Assembly: GCA_947378425.1 (NCBI GenBank)
Contig: CANCJV010000024.1
Span: 1-59,344 of the forward strand
Direction: 5' to 3'
DNA: 59,344 nucleotides
Origin: Synechococcaceae cyanobacterium
GTDB lineage: Bacteria > Cyanobacteriota > Cyanobacteriia > PCC-6307 > Cyanobiaceae
This document shows, one piece after another, positions 46,838-52,710 of this stretch (position 1 is its first letter; the number at the start of each line of letters is the position of its first letter). Both the position numbers and the translations under genes were made by a program. The notes beneath the pieces are model-generated. The model did no database searches, was not told the DNA's origin, and was given only the letters and a program-made list of their open reading frames with translations.

Positions 46838-48652
46838 ATGCCCATGAGTGGCGAAGTCAAAGGTGTGCCGATTCGCAACATTGCGATCATTGCGCACGTC
46901 GACCACGGCAAGACCACCCTGGTGGACGCCCTTCTCACCCAGTCCGGCATCTTCCGGGAGGGCGAGGCCGTGCCCACTTGCATCATGGACTCCAACGATC
47001 TGGAGCGGGAACGGGGTATCACGATTCTCTCCAAGAACACGGCTGTCGATTACAACGGCATCCGCATCAACATTGTCGACACCCCCGGCCACGCCGATTT
47101 CGGTGGCGAGGTGGAGCGGGTTCTCGGCATGGTCGATGGCTGCCTGCTGATCGTCGACGCCAATGAGGGGCCGATGCCCCAGACCCGCTTCGTGCTCAAG
47201 AAGGCCCTGGAAAAAGGGTTGCGCCCGATCGTGTTCGTCAACAAGATCGACCGGGCCCGGGTGGATCCCGAACAGGCTGTCGACAAGGTGCTCGACCTGT
47301 TCCTTGAGCTCGGCGCCGACGACGATCAGTGCGATTTCACTTACTTGTTCGGCAGCGGCATGGGCGGTTACGCCAAGCCGGACATGAAGACCGAAAGCGA
47401 CAACATGAAGCCGCTCTTCGACGCGATTCTGCGCCATGTTCCGCCGCCGGTCGGCGATCCCACCAAGCCCCTGCAGCTGCAGGTCACCACGCTCGATTAC
47501 AGCGATTTTCTTGGTCGCATCATGATCGGCCGCATCCACAACGGCACCATCAGGGGCGGCCAGCCAGCGGCGCTGATCCGCGACGACGGCACCATCAAGC
47601 GGGGTCGGATTTCCAAATTGCTCGGCTTCCAGGGGCTGCAGCGGGTCGAGATCGAGCAGGCCAGTGCCGGCGATCTGGTGGCGGTGGCCGGCTTTGATGA
47701 GGTCAACATCGGCGAGACCATCGCCTGCCCCGACCACCCGGAGGCTCTGCCGCTGATCAAGGTGGATGAACCCACCCTGCAGATGACCTTCGTCGTCAAC
47801 GACTCTCCGTTTGCAGGCAAGGAGGGCAAGTTCGTCACCAGCCGTCAGCTGCGGGACCGGCTGCAACGGGAACTGCTCACCAACGTGGCTTTGCGCGTTG
47901 AAGACACGGACTCCCCGGACCGGTTCGCCGTCAGCGGTCGCGGTGAACTGCACCTGGGCATCCTGATTGAAACCATGCGCCGTGAGGGCTATGAGTTCCA
48001 GGTGAGCCAGCCCCAGGTGATCTTCCGCACCATCGATGGCACGCCCAGCGAGCCCTACGAAACCCTGGTGATGGATGTGCCGGAGGAATCCGTCGGCTCC
48101 TGCATCGAGAAGCTCGGCACGCGCAAGGGCGAGATGCAGAACATGGAGAACACCAACGACGGCCGTACCCAGCTGGAGTTCGTGGTGCCCGCCCGTGGCC
48201 TGATCGGCTTCCGCGGCGAGTTCATCCGCGCCACCCGGGGCGAGGGCATCATGAGCCATTCGTTCCTCGACTACCGGCCGATGCAGGGGGACATGGATGC
48301 CCGCCGCAATGGCGTGCTGGTGGCCTTCGAAGAAGGCACCGCCACCTTCTATGCCCTCAAGGGGGCTGAAGACCGTGGACAGTTCTTCATCACGCCTGGC
48401 ACCAAGGTCTACAAGGGCATGATTGTCGGCGAACACAATCGACCGCCCGATCTTGAGCTCAACGTCTGCAAGGCCAAGCAGGTCACCAACATCCGCTCCG
48501 CCGGAGCCGAGGTGCTCGACACCCTGCAGGCGCCGATTCAGATGACGCTGGAGAGGGCACTCGAGTACATCGGTCCCGATGAGATGCTCGAAGTCACGCC
48601 CGAGTCGATCCGGTTGCGCAAGCTGCCGATGAAGAAGCCAGCCAAGCGTTGA
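46838..48652 (+). CDS. typA: Ribosome-associated GTPase TypA/BipA
   Basis: TypA is an EF-G-like GTPase that binds 70S ribosomes and supports 50S assembly and growth under stress. It has 604 residues. G1 is AHVDHGKT near 19, G2 ERERGITI, G3 DTPGHADF and G4 NKIDR. Domain V and the TypA-specific C-terminal domain ([22 protein letters not shown]-like region as [17 protein letters not shown]) follow. ATG 46838 and 46844 are both possible starts. Its stop overlaps the TTG start of the DUF309 gene (TTGA). Confidence 0.96.
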
Positions 48653-49086
48653 GTGCCACTGCCGATTCGCCCGCCCTCCAACCTGGTTGCGAGGGCGGGC
48701 TTCTGGCTGAAGAGGTCCTGCTGCTGGCCGATCCTCGCTGGCAGCAAGCCGTTGATCTGTTCAATGCGGCCGACTGGTATGGCTGTCACGATGGCTTTGA
48801 GGAGCTCTGGCACGAAACCCAGGGGCCGATGAGGCTTGTGCTGCAAGGCATCCTGCAGATCGCCGTCGGACAGCTCCACATGGACCGCGGCAATCGCCAC
48901 GGGGCCATGGTGCTGACAGGCGAGGGCCTGGGTCGCCTGCGCAGCTGCGACGACCAGGCTCTGGGGCTGGACCTGAGGGATCTCTGCCAGCAGGGTTCCC
49001 TGTGGTTGCAGGCCTTGCAGGCCGATGCCGAGACCTGCAGCTTGCCCAGACCGAGCCTGCGGAAGCCGGGCACGTCACCCCGGTAA
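48649..49086 (+). CDS. DUF309 family protein
   Basis: 145 residues from a TTG at 48649 that overlaps the typA stop codon, implying translational coupling. The DUF309 signature is present: FNAADWYGCHDGFEELWHE near 38-56, with the conserved Cys-His and Glu pairs, followed by a helical LVLQGILQIAVGQLHMDRGN. The family is widespread in cyanobacteria and Firmicutes, and its function is unknown. The C-terminal 20 residues are basic and Pro-rich. Confidence 0.85.
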   Translation: MSATADSPALQPGCEGGLLAEEVLLLADPRWQQAVDLFNAADWYGCHDGFEELWHETQGPMRLVLQGILQIAVGQLHMDRGNRHGAMVLTGEGLGRLRSCDDQALGLDLRDLCQQGSLWLQALQADAETCSLPRPSLRKPGTSPR

Positions 49087-49122
49087 ATTAGTCCGACGTT
49101 TCACCGCCTGCCGAGCTGATTG

Positions 49123-49665
49123 ATGCAGGTCAGAACCCTGTTCCAGTTGCGATCACTTTGGCATTCGCCACTGGGCTCAGCGCTGCGTGCCACCACCAGC
49201 CATCGTCGTCGCACGCTGACGGTGACAGCCGTGCTGTCCCTTCTGGCCCTGGCGCTTCCCCATCCCGGAGCGGCCCAACCCGCCAGCCAGGCCAAGCCGG
49301 TGGTGGTCAGCCCGGCATCGGCATCTGACGCCGGGCTGGTCACGATTGAATCCGATACCCAGCAGGCCGACAACCGCACCGGCGTGGTCACAGCCATCGG
49401 CAATGTGCGCATCGAGTACCCCGATCGCCACATGGTCGCCACCTCACGCCAGGCCCAGTACTTTTCCAAGGAAGGCCGGCTTGTCTTGACCGGCGATGTC
49501 GATGTGATCGATGCCGATGGCCAACGCATCCGTGCCGAACGGCTCGTGTATCGGCTGGACAGTGAGCGGCTCCTGGCCGAACCTCCCGCCGGCAAACAGG
49601 TCTACAGCCGCCTGAGGTTGCAGAACAAGGCCCCGACCCCCGCCGCCCGACCGCAGCTGCCATGA
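49123..49665 (+). CDS. lptA: LptA/OstA-like periplasmic lipopolysaccharide transport protein
   Basis: 180 residues from ATG 49123. A basic region (HRRR) and a hydrophobic stretch (LTVTAVLSLLALALP) form a signal sequence or anchor. The OstA-fold domain follows, with TIESDTQQADNRTGVVTAIGNVRI, YFSKEGRLVLTGDVDVIDADGQRIRAERLVY, the repeating beta-jellyroll strands seen in LptA. It should bridge the inner-membrane LptB2F/G complex to LptD. The stop overlaps the fused lptB-lptF gene by 4 nt, which supports the role. Confidence 0.85.
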   Translation: MQVRTLFQLRSLWHSPLGSALRATTSHRRRTLTVTAVLSLLALALPHPGAAQPASQAKPVVVSPASASDAGLVTIESDTQQADNRTGVVTAIGNVRIEYPDRHMVATSRQAQYFSKEGRLVLTGDVDVIDADGQRIRAERLVYRLDSERLLAEPPAGKQVYSRLRLQNKAPTPAARPQLP

Positions 49666-51719
49666 GTCTTGCCCTGGAACGGGTGTGTATCACCCTGGGG
49701 GGTCGGCCTCTCGTCGATGACGTCAGTCTTGAACTTCGCCCCGGTGAAGTGGTGGGCCTGCTGGGCCCCAATGGCGCTGGCAAGACGACCACCTTCAATC
49801 TCGTCACCGGGCTGCTGCGACCTGACAGCGGTGATGTGCTGCTGGATGGCCAGTCGGTCACGGCTCTGTCGATGCCGGTTCGAGCCCGGCTCGGTATCGG
49901 TTATCTGCCCCAGGAAGCGAGTGTCTTCCGCCAGCTCACCGTGCGCGACAACCTGCGGCTGGCATTGGCTGAAAGCGGCACACCGGAACATCGGCGGCGG
50001 GATCGCCTCGAGCAACTGATCGAGGATTTCCATCTCGGACCGTTCCAACATCGGCGCGGCTACCAGCTTTCGGGAGGTGAGCGGCGTCGCTGTGAGGTGG
50101 CACGAGCTCTGGCGGTCGGTGAATCGGGGCCCCGTTATCTGCTCCTCGATGAGCCCTTCGCCGGGGTGGACCCCCTGGCGGTGGCCGATCTGCAGGATCT
50201 GATCAGTGGTCTGCGGGATCGGGGCATGGGCGTGTTGATCACTGACCACAACGTTCGTGAGACGTTGGCGATCACCAATCGGGCCTACATCCTCACCGAA
50301 GGCTCCCTGCTGGCCTCGGGCAGCTCCGCCGAGGTGGCGGACAATCCCCTGGTACGACGCCACTACCTGGGTGAAGCCTTCGCCATGTTGGCGGCCCCTT
50401 CCTTCTGGAGCGGCGAACGCGATGAACCCCAGGCCACACTGCTCGAACCGCCGAGTCAGCCTGAGCTGCTCCCGGAAAGCGAGGCTGCTGCTGCGACGCC
50501 TTGGGCCCGTCGTCTGGATGGGCTCCCGGTGGTGCGGGCCAGCCGGACCTGGTCGGCGGCGGCCTTCGCTCCCCTGCGCCCCTGGCTGCGCCGTATCCCC
50601 CTGCTCGATCGCTGGCTGATCGGCGAACTTCTCGGTCCGCTGCTGTTCGGCACCGCCGCGTTCACGGCGGTGTCCCTGTCCGTTGGAGTGGTGTTCGAGC
50701 TGGTCAGGCGGGTGTCGGAATCGGGACTGCCGGTGACGGCGGCGCTGCTGGTGTTGCTGCTGCGTCTGCCCGGGTTTCTGGTGCTGGCATTCCCGATGGC
50801 CACCTTGATGGCCACCCTGCTGGCCTACAGCCGCCTGTCCGGCAGCAGTGAACTCACGGCCCTGCGCAGCGTCGGGGTGAGCACGCGCCGCATGGTGATG
50901 CCTGCGTTGATGCTGTCCGTGGTGATGAGTCTGATGACCTTCACCTTCAACGATCTGATCGTGCCGAGATCCAACCTGGCCGCCTCCAACACCCTGGAGC
51001 GGGCCCTGGGCAAAGCCATTGCCAGTGAGAAAGGCGACAATATTCTTTATTCCCGTTTTGGTCGTATCAAAATGGAAGAGGGGGAATCGACCCGAATGTT
51101 GACCCATATTTTTTACGCTCGTAAGTTCCTGCGTGGCGAGATGAATGATGTGACGTTGATTGATTTTTCCCGTTCCGGTCAGCGCCAGATGTTGATGGCC
51201 AAGCAGGGACATTGGAACGATGACAAGGCGATGTGGGAGTTCTCGAATGGCAGAATCGTCAATATCGATGAAATCAATGGCACCACCACCTCGGCTGAAT
51301 TTGACCGTTATTTCTATCCCCTTTCGCGCGATCCGCTTGAGGTGGCAAAGCTTCCCACCGATGCCAGCGTGATGACGGTGGGCCAGGCGCTGCGGGCGGA
51401 ACGGCTGCTCAAAGAAGCCAACAACCTCAAGGAAGCCCGGCGTCTGAGAGTGCGGATACAGGAGAAGTTTGCCTTTCCTGCAATCTGTCTGGTCTTCGGC
51501 TTGATCGGCAGCAGCCTCGGGGTTCGTCCCCACTCCCGCACCAGCCGCAGCCAGGGCTTCGGCATCAGCGTGCTGTTGATTTTCGGCTATTACTTGATGT
51601 CCTTCATTTTCAGTTCCCTCGGTATCACCGCCACCCTCACCCCGGTGCTGGCTGCCTGGATGCCCGTTCTGATCGGCCTATCCGGTGGGCTCTGGCTGCT
51701 GCGGCAGGCCAGCCGCTGA
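49662..51719 (+). CDS. lptB: Fused LPS-export ATPase LptB and YjgP/YjgQ (LptF/G) permease
   Basis: One uninterrupted 685-residue frame. Residues 1-240 are a full LptB ATPase: Walker [10 protein letters not shown] at 35-43, signature [15 protein letters not shown] near 137, Walker [13 protein letters not shown] and the switch His in ITDHNV. Residues about 241-312 are a variable linker with an acidic patch and Ala/Pro/Arg. From about 313 it is an LptF/G permease: helices ([33 protein letters not shown]), an external jellyroll domain (about 430-570) and C-terminal helices. In most bacteria these are separate genes; here a full half-transporter is in one chain. The external domain also has more A/T at third codon positions. 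Confidence 0.9.
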
Positions 51720-51798
51720 GAAGGCGAGCGACCGATGCCCTGACCCGGCCCGGATCGCCTGGCTGGACGGCAGACTGGGCCGATCTGAACCTTGCTGC

Positions 51799-52710
51799 GT
51801 GAACGATCCGGTTTTTGCCCTGGGCCTGATGGCCTTCGGTCTGCTGCTGTTGGTGTTGCCCCTGTCGTTCTGGTCCCTCAGCGGTGGCAAGAACAGTTCA
51901 GTTGTGCGCCTGCTGGTGGCTGCCGCAAACCTCTGCCTCACCGCCCAGTTGGTCCTGCGCTGGTGGGACTCAGGTCATTTTCCGATCAGCAACCTTTATG
52001 AGTCCCTGTGCTTCCTGGCCTGGGGCTGCACCCTGACCCAGCTGTTGGTGGAACGCAGCTGGCCCAGTCCGCTGGTGCCGGCGGCAGCCACACCGATGGC
52101 CCTGGGCTGCGTGGCCTTTGCCAGCTTCGCCCTGCCGGATCAACTCCAACAGGCCTCACCCCTGGTGCCTGCCCTGCGTTCCAGCTGGCTGGTGATGCAT
52201 GTGAGCGTGATCATGCTCAGCTATGCCGCCCTGCTGGTGGGCTCGCTGCTGTCGCTGGCGGTGTTGTTCACCGAGCGCAACCAGGCCTTGGAACTGCGCA
52301 GCAGCTCCATCGGCAGCGGTGGCTTTCGCCAGGCCCAGCTGGCCTCCGATGGCCCCGGTGCCATGGCGCTGAGCAGCACCGAATTCCGGATCAGCGAGCA
52401 ACTCGACAGCCTCAGCTACCGCACCATCACGGTTGGCTTTCTGCTGCTTTCGGTGGGACTGGTCAGCGGTGCCGTCTGGGCCAACGAGGCCTGGGGCAGT
52501 TGGTGGAGCTGGGACCCCAAGGAGACCTGGGCTCTGATCTGCTGGTTGGTCTATGCGGCTTATCTGCACACCCGGCTGATCCGCGGCTGGCAGGGGCGCC
52601 GACCCGCGATCGTCGCTGTCGTGGGGCTGGTGGTGATCGCGGTCTGCTACATCGGCGTCAACCTGCTGGGCATCGGACTGCACAGCTATGGCTGGTTCTT
52701 CGACAGCTGA
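51799..52710 (+). CDS. ccsA: Cytochrome c biogenesis protein CcsA
   Basis: CcsA carries heme across the thylakoid/plasma membrane and, with CcsB (Ccs1), attaches it to apocytochromes c in system II. The GTG at 51799 (MNDPVFALG) gives 303 residues and about eight helices. The tryptophan-rich WWD motif [14 protein letters not shown] lies near 232-245, and the heme-ligand His residues are in [10 protein letters not shown] and near the C-terminal LHSYGWF. The open frame runs further upstream, but that extension is not family-like. ccsB is not in the window. Confidence 0.93.

Follow-up and report, generated by a model that had tools for sequence, protein, structure and literature searches.

The stretch of DNA analyzed here (the window) comprises 59,344 nucleotides of contig CANCJV010000024.1 in assembly GCA_947378425.1, from a Synechococcaceae cyanobacterium. 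It contains a gene in which LptB, the ATPase of the lipopolysaccharide (LPS) exporter, is joined through a linker to an LptF/LptG-type permease in a single polypeptide (Table 1). An earlier reading of this DNA from its letters alone (referred to as the sequence-only reading) had described one open frame encoding LptB followed by a full permease. The ORF listing and translation, which show no internal stop, together with NCBIfam and Pfam matches and the nine genomes discussed below, confirm this frame at the same coordinates.

Table 1. Features of the fused lptB-permease gene and its upstream neighbor, with positions in the window
Feature	Position	Strand	Description
lptA-like periplasmic bridge gene	49120..49665	+	181 aa frame (start provisional)
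Fused LptB-permease gene	49662..51719	+	685 aa/685 codons; ATG start, TGA stop 51717-51719
LptB domain	49662..50387	+	residues 1-242
LptB motifs			Walker A 35-42, Q-loop 81-90, LSGGE 136-140, Walker B 160-165, H-loop 194-196
In-frame ATG, residue 242	50385..50387	+	old LptB-permease junction; possible internal start; in 8/9 fused genes
Linker	50388..50597	+	residues 243-312, 70 residues
LptF/LptG-type permease domain	50598..51716	+	residues 313-685; PF03739 and fold match
Coupling helix (10 residues)	50847..50876	+	conserved glutamate E397; within SELTALR
Periplasmic beta-jellyroll domain	51024..51341	+	about residues 455-560; strands 458-552 in both predicted models

The N-terminal part of the fused protein (residues 6-242) matches the LptB equivalog model TIGR04406 of NCBIfam with 307.8 bits, above its cut-off of 240, and Pfam places ABC_tran at residues 19-167 and BCA_ABC_TP_C at residues 216-241. 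The C-terminal part (residues 317-681) matches PF03739 (LptF_LptG) with 253.8 bits, against a gathering cut-off of 27.9, over positions 1-352 of the 353 in the profile. Its scores against the two equivalog models of this family, 169.9 bits for LptG (TIGR04408, cut-off 240) and 135 bits for LptF (TIGR04407, cut-off 230), fall below both cut-offs. No ABC2-type (ABCG) membrane domain was found, the only Pfam matches at E 0.001 being ABC_tran, BCA_ABC_TP_C, and LptF_LptG. The Walker A, Q-loop (YLPQExS[VI]FR), LSGGE, Walker B, H-loop, and coupling-helix motifs are intact in all nine fused proteins; the sequence-only reading had likewise reported all LptB motifs. The protein keeps both the FR in the Q-loop and the glutamate in SELTALR. 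According to a study of the E. coli exporter, the coupling-helix glutamates E84 of LptF and E88 of LptG and the LptB groove residues F90 and R91 link ATP use to LPS extraction, and the glutamate and glycine described there match those of the fused protein (PMC5082905).

Two compositional features of the gene were also observed. The GC content dips to 47.8% over the periplasmic-domain stretch (window 51019-51340), where GC3 is 0.574, while three other parts of the gene have GC3 values of 0.71-0.87. Four other fused genes tested show the same dip (GC3 0.57-0.66), which is weaker or absent in G019, one of the nine fused genomes, and in five separate-gene relatives. In addition, an antisense frame of 643 codons (window 49602-51533, minus strand) spans nearly all of the fused gene and is probably a by-product of GC-rich codon use.

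Structure comparisons agree with the domain assignment. In a sequence search of the PDB, residues 8-241 matched LptB chains at 255 bits (best 60 of 431 sequences), and the permease part matched 11 LptG/LptF sequences with a best score of 47.7 bits. As these 11 sequences are only 355-375 residues long, none of them is a fusion, in keeping with the earlier statement that the exporters studied so far have separate chains. Of two predicted models, the first has a mean pLDDT of 49.8 and leaves the LptB domain unresolved, while the second forms both domains (mean pLDDT 62.2, pTM 0.35), with a placement of LptB relative to the permease that is not informative. The permease part of the first model aligned with LptF/LptG chains at Z 13.0-19.6 in the first 19 rows of the list, the best being LptF 9dok_F (VIA-align Z 19.6, rmsd 5.4, 337 residues aligned; model confidence modest), compared with Z 7.4 for ABCG25. 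Its predicted fold, a helical membrane domain with a periplasmic jellyroll, appears to be that of LptF_LptG, and the jellyroll stretch also matches LptC, LptA, and LptD chains. With the ATPase part of the second model, the first 23 rows of a Foldseek search were LptB chains, save four Burkholderia chains titled "ABC transporter related protein"; entries 5l75 and 5x5y in that search carry bland titles.

Upstream, the stop codon of the lptA-like gene overlaps the start of the fused gene by 4 nt (ATGA), as the sequence-only reading had reported, both in the window and in all seven named fused loci of the genome collection (listed below). The encoded protein scores just above the cut-offs of PF03968 (31.4 bits) and PF06835 (22 bits), and below that of TIGR03002 (37.2 bits, cut-off 71.7). 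The 4-nt lptA/lptB overlap was present in 78 of 80 collection rows; for the other two, L172 and L182, the match used for the measurement starts elsewhere than at a start codon. The gene order typA, DUF309, lptA, lptB, permease, and ccsB is common to fused and separate loci wherever the flank is covered. The clustering of lptA, lptB, and permease was seen in 80/80 rows examined (L108-L187; window 46838-52710); a survey of 85 genomes reports clustered lpt genes for Proteobacteria only (PMC8871954). The sequence-only reading had further proposed that two genes make up the whole bridge-and-motor unit, which does not hold, since an LptC homolog is encoded on contig 20 of the same genome (51.1 bits; 56 bits as protein) and a DUF3769 protein on contig 28 (96.7 bits, with a sub-threshold OstA-like match of 17.1 bits). 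DUF3769 has been described as the cyanobacterial LptD (PMC4365693).

We searched 42 genomes of the genus with the whole protein. Nine carry the fusion, with residues 1-685 in a single match and no internal stop, 32 have separate genes (four of them, G359, G539, G614, and G659, judged from search rows only), and the one without a match (G708) is 73% complete. The fused share is therefore 9 of the 41 genus genomes with a match. At the 37 junctions that were read, LptB and permease lie in one frame in these nine genomes (G000, G007, G014, G016, G019, G020, G021, G028, and G032), and are separate and always offset in frame in the other 28, including G015, where the LptB gene is cut by the contig end with the stop and frame offset still visible, and G005, where the permease is cut. 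In 27 of the 28, there is a 4-nt overlap between the LptB stop and a TTG, GTG, or ATG start. In G030 (loci L057 and L142), a TAA stop overlaps the ATG by 1 nt (TAATG) instead of the usual TGA overlap, and this locus also sits on a long branch in the tree described below. The fusion is conserved: the fused proteins are 82-95% identical to the window protein. With the separate-gene relatives, domain identity within the genus is 77-83%. One of the nine assemblies, G019, consists of one 3.67 Mb contig and is 99% complete.

In the genome collection, 80 loci out of 165 relatives were retained, of which 79 contain both genes, seven fused and 72 separate; the eightieth, L119, is cut within LptB. The seven fused loci are in the metagenome assemblies Umea1p2_bin-0011, LacPavin_0818 MAG_64_39, MAG_65_9, Umea1_bin-0606, Loc090519-5m_bin-1412, HRS-ES1-bin-439, and LH-02apr19-271, all of which are already counted among the nine. 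Relatives with separate genes include Aphanothece cf. minutissima CCALA 015, Synechococcus sp. BO 8801, and several Cyanobium strains. The collection loci are cyanobacterial by title with one exception, L113 (CALPNT020000049.1), which is titled Bifidobacterium breve and holds a cyanobacterial locus with a 98.7% identical TypA, so that the record name is evidently wrong.

When the search with the full protein was extended to 400 genomes of the family, 355 had a match at E 1e-100 and 45 had none, and the 1-685 span occurred in the same nine only, among the matches listed. Likewise, no further fusion was seen among the matches listed for 386 genomes of the phylum, for which conspicuously long frames and all genus frames were read. 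The spread of the fusion, on which the sequence-only reading had taken no position, is thus limited to these nine genomes among the matches listed. Several long frames were rejected as fusions: in G479, G516, G073 C29, and G078 C96, the long frame is open by chance in GC-rich DNA, and LptB is encoded in a different one; G073 C314 and G078 C19 have no LptB match in the stretch, their frames running out of frame through the neighboring permease; and those in G062 and G075 are C-terminal extensions, again with no LptB match in the stretch. In these last two, distant members of the phylum (L099 and L100 respectively), an LptF/G-type permease carries an in-frame C-terminal extension of more than 200 residues with hydrophobic stretches (judged by eye). 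In the plasmid collection, nothing among the 5000 best records covered 80% of the query.

The sequence-only reading had put the linker at roughly 70 residues, which is its length in the window protein, and across the nine fused proteins it ranges from 66 to 73 residues, with differences of whole codons. By comparison, the N-terminal extensions of the permeases in separate genus members are about 11-40 residues, mostly 28-34. The linker has about 14 conserved residues at its start, followed by a variable middle rich in Pro, Ala, and acidic residues, and then by weakly predicted helices leading into the permease. In the second model, residues 241-280 are disordered (pLDDT 28-36) and helices are placed at 280-286 and 289-310 with pLDDT of about 56-65. 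Among the fused genes, divergence at codon positions 1/2/3 is 0.35/0.29/0.52 in the linker, 0.05/0.04/0.36 in LptB, and 0.09/0.04/0.37 in the permease; at the linker start (the first 14 residues, LAAPSFWSG onward), divergence at positions 1 and 2 is about 0.10, compared with 0.43 and 0.38 in the middle. Six pairs of fused genes that do not include G019 gave dN/dS values of 0.25-0.42 for the linker, 0.01-0.07 for LptB, and 0.03-0.06 for the permease; for the linker, three of the pairs have more than one synonymous change per site, and the middle aligns uncertainly. The whole-codon indels, the excess of third-position changes, and the dN/dS values together show that the linker is translated and under mild constraint. 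A long extension of the permease need not mean fusion: at four separate loci (L162, L168, L170, and L177), 176-239 nt lie between the end of LptB and the permease core, enough for long N-terminal extensions.

Neither LptB nor the permease was found a second time. In the window's own genome, which is 98.6% complete in 84 contigs, scoring all seven PF03739 candidates gave a single match, so that the second LptF/LptG gene that the sequence-only reading suggested looking for did not appear. This genome also has one LptB above the cut-off (311.1 bits), the next-best ATPase scoring 155.8 bits. Each of the nine fused genomes, some of them incomplete assemblies (64-99%), has one PF03739 match with all candidates scored, and none has a second match to the whole fused protein at E 1e-60 among the 28 best candidates scored per genome. 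The single, nearly complete contig of G019 leaves little room for hidden separate copies. A single permease is in fact the rule, with one LptF/LptG match in 58/58 family genomes, two of them fused (at most five candidates scored each), and one PF03739 match in all 37 genus genomes (all candidates scored). A homodimeric permease would therefore be common to all of these bacteria and not a creation of the fusion; the fusion itself took the gene number from two to one, not from three to one as the sequence-only reading had it. Single LptF/G homologs have also been described in Negativicutes and Halanaerobiales (PMC5007114).

We built a tree from 85 distinct, near-full-length LptB plus permease proteins from loci with both genes, leaving out the linker and permease matches below 55% identity. 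All nine fused rows group together as a clade (SH-aLRT 99), and their distribution can be accounted for by one change; the clade is also recovered, again with one change each, from LptB alone (SH-aLRT 97) and from the permease alone (92). The fusion thus appears to have one origin. As the fused clade is nested among separate rows, the fusion would be the derived state, unless the root is misplaced (a quick method with a midpoint root was used). Under this scenario, a single ancestor in a freshwater picocyanobacterial genus (Cyanobium-like) may have lost the stop codon that separated lptB from the single lptF/G-type permease gene beside it, together with the frame offset, and gained a longer linker between them.

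The explanation we favor, and consider quite likely, is that the gene encodes an LPS-export half-transporter, derived from the fusion of lptB and the single permease gene in one ancestor, which dimerizes and works with LptC, LptA, and the DUF3769-type LptD. Two fused chains would form an LptB2-permease2 exporter, in which the two LptB domains may close into an ATP sandwich, each LptB Q-loop groove docking on the coupling helix of either the same or the partner chain. LPS would be lifted out of the inner membrane by a cavity formed by the two permease domains and handed on along the jellyrolls to LptC, LptA, and LptD. A function in LPS export is suggested by homology, by the locus, and by the presence of LptA, LptC, and DUF3769/LptD homologs in the genome. 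The sequence-only reading had likewise derived an LptB2-permease2 complex of two identical chains; the fusion on which it built is confirmed, and the exporter is probably a homodimer of one chain, although its assembly is a prediction. One point that counts against this explanation is that LptF and LptG play unequal roles in E. coli (PMC10094684, PMC5082905), so that a homodimer must either do without this asymmetry or create it in some other way.

A second point against it is the ATG at residue 242, from which a separate permease could also be made. The fused gene might accordingly give two products, the fused chain and a free permease of about 444 aa started internally at this codon, and the complexes may be mixed. 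This ATG is kept in eight of the nine fused genes, a Shine-Dalgarno-like GGTGAAG lies upstream of it (judged by eye), and the separate permeases of relatives appear to start at the equivalent place, with the TTG, GTG, or ATG that overlaps the LptB stop. G019, the ninth and most divergent fused gene, however, has CTG at position 242, and its whole linker is free of in-frame ATG, GTG, and TTG codons, so that a separate permease cannot start there at a usual start codon; this species, at least, must manage with the fused chain. Initiation at the old junction is possible in the other eight, and we regard a dual product as improbable. Still less probable, in our estimate, is a cut of the finished chain within the flexible linker that would restore separate LptB and permease. 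The variable, Pro/Ala-rich middle with its predicted disorder would suit such a cut, but the conserved first 14 residues are not needed by a mere cut site. Finally, a missed stop or frameshift in sequencing or assembly might be suspected, since seven of the nine fused genomes are titled as metagenome assemblies and 32 of the 41 relatives with a match have separate genes. The sequence-only reading had itself raised an assembly error in the linker, with two separate genes in close relatives, as a ground against the fusion; nine assemblies share the fusion. Their agreement, with one of them a single 3.67 Mb contig and with 82-95% identity to the window protein, the whole-codon linker indels and predominance of third-position substitutions, and the single clade of fused genes lead us to reject an artefact, which we consider next to impossible.

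A stronger form of the favored half-transporter explanation is that these bacteria possess an obligate one-gene LPS extractor, in which a pair of identical LptB-permease chains assembles with strict two-fold symmetry. The asymmetry of LptF and LptG, i.e., one LPS entry gate, one jellyroll path, and one LptC site, would then be dispensable or imposed only by LptC, and the conserved linker start would be a new structural element between the ATPase and the membrane domain. We see this form as about evenly poised between right and wrong. In solved exporters, LptF and LptG are described as differing in role, with LPS thought to enter at one interface and leave via the LptF jellyroll (PMC10094684). 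With the only permease tied to its own ATPase, the exporter should instead consist of identical halves with ATPase and permease at 1:1. The fused exporter would therefore be a ready construct with which to test the need for LptF/LptG asymmetry and for a separate ATPase supply, and to ask whether an ATPase acts on the permease of its own chain or on that of its partner. The survival of the lineage also shows that the C-terminus of LptB, usually free, tolerates covalent attachment to the N-terminus of the permease.

An LptB-LptF/G fusion was not found described in the portions of open-licence PMC full text available to us. The fusion is new as a variant, and the exporter type itself is already known, so that it does not constitute a new kind of system. 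Compared with the type VI exporter LptB2FG(C) of E. coli and other bacteria, the fused protein shares an LptB above the equivalog cut-off, the LptF/LptG fold with a jellyroll, and the coupling-helix glutamate, and the adjoining lptA-like gene is a further likeness. It differs in that LptB and permease are on separate chains in LptB2FG(C) and on one chain in the fused clade, and in that LptF and LptG are replaced by the product of one permease gene that reaches neither equivalog cut-off. A classification of ABC transporters from 2020 describes type VI exclusively as a heterodimer (PMC8386196). Other picocyanobacteria have the same locus, neighbors, and single permease, but with two genes offset in frame and overlapping by 4 nt in 27/28 cases, where the fused clade has them joined with an added linker. 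In its domain order, the fused protein resembles half-size ABC exporters such as ABCG2 and MacB, which have an N-terminal ATPase and a C-terminal membrane domain on one chain and, as expected for the fused protein, dimerize. The membrane domain of these exporters, however, is of the ABCG or MacB type, whereas that of the fused protein is of the LptF/LptG type.
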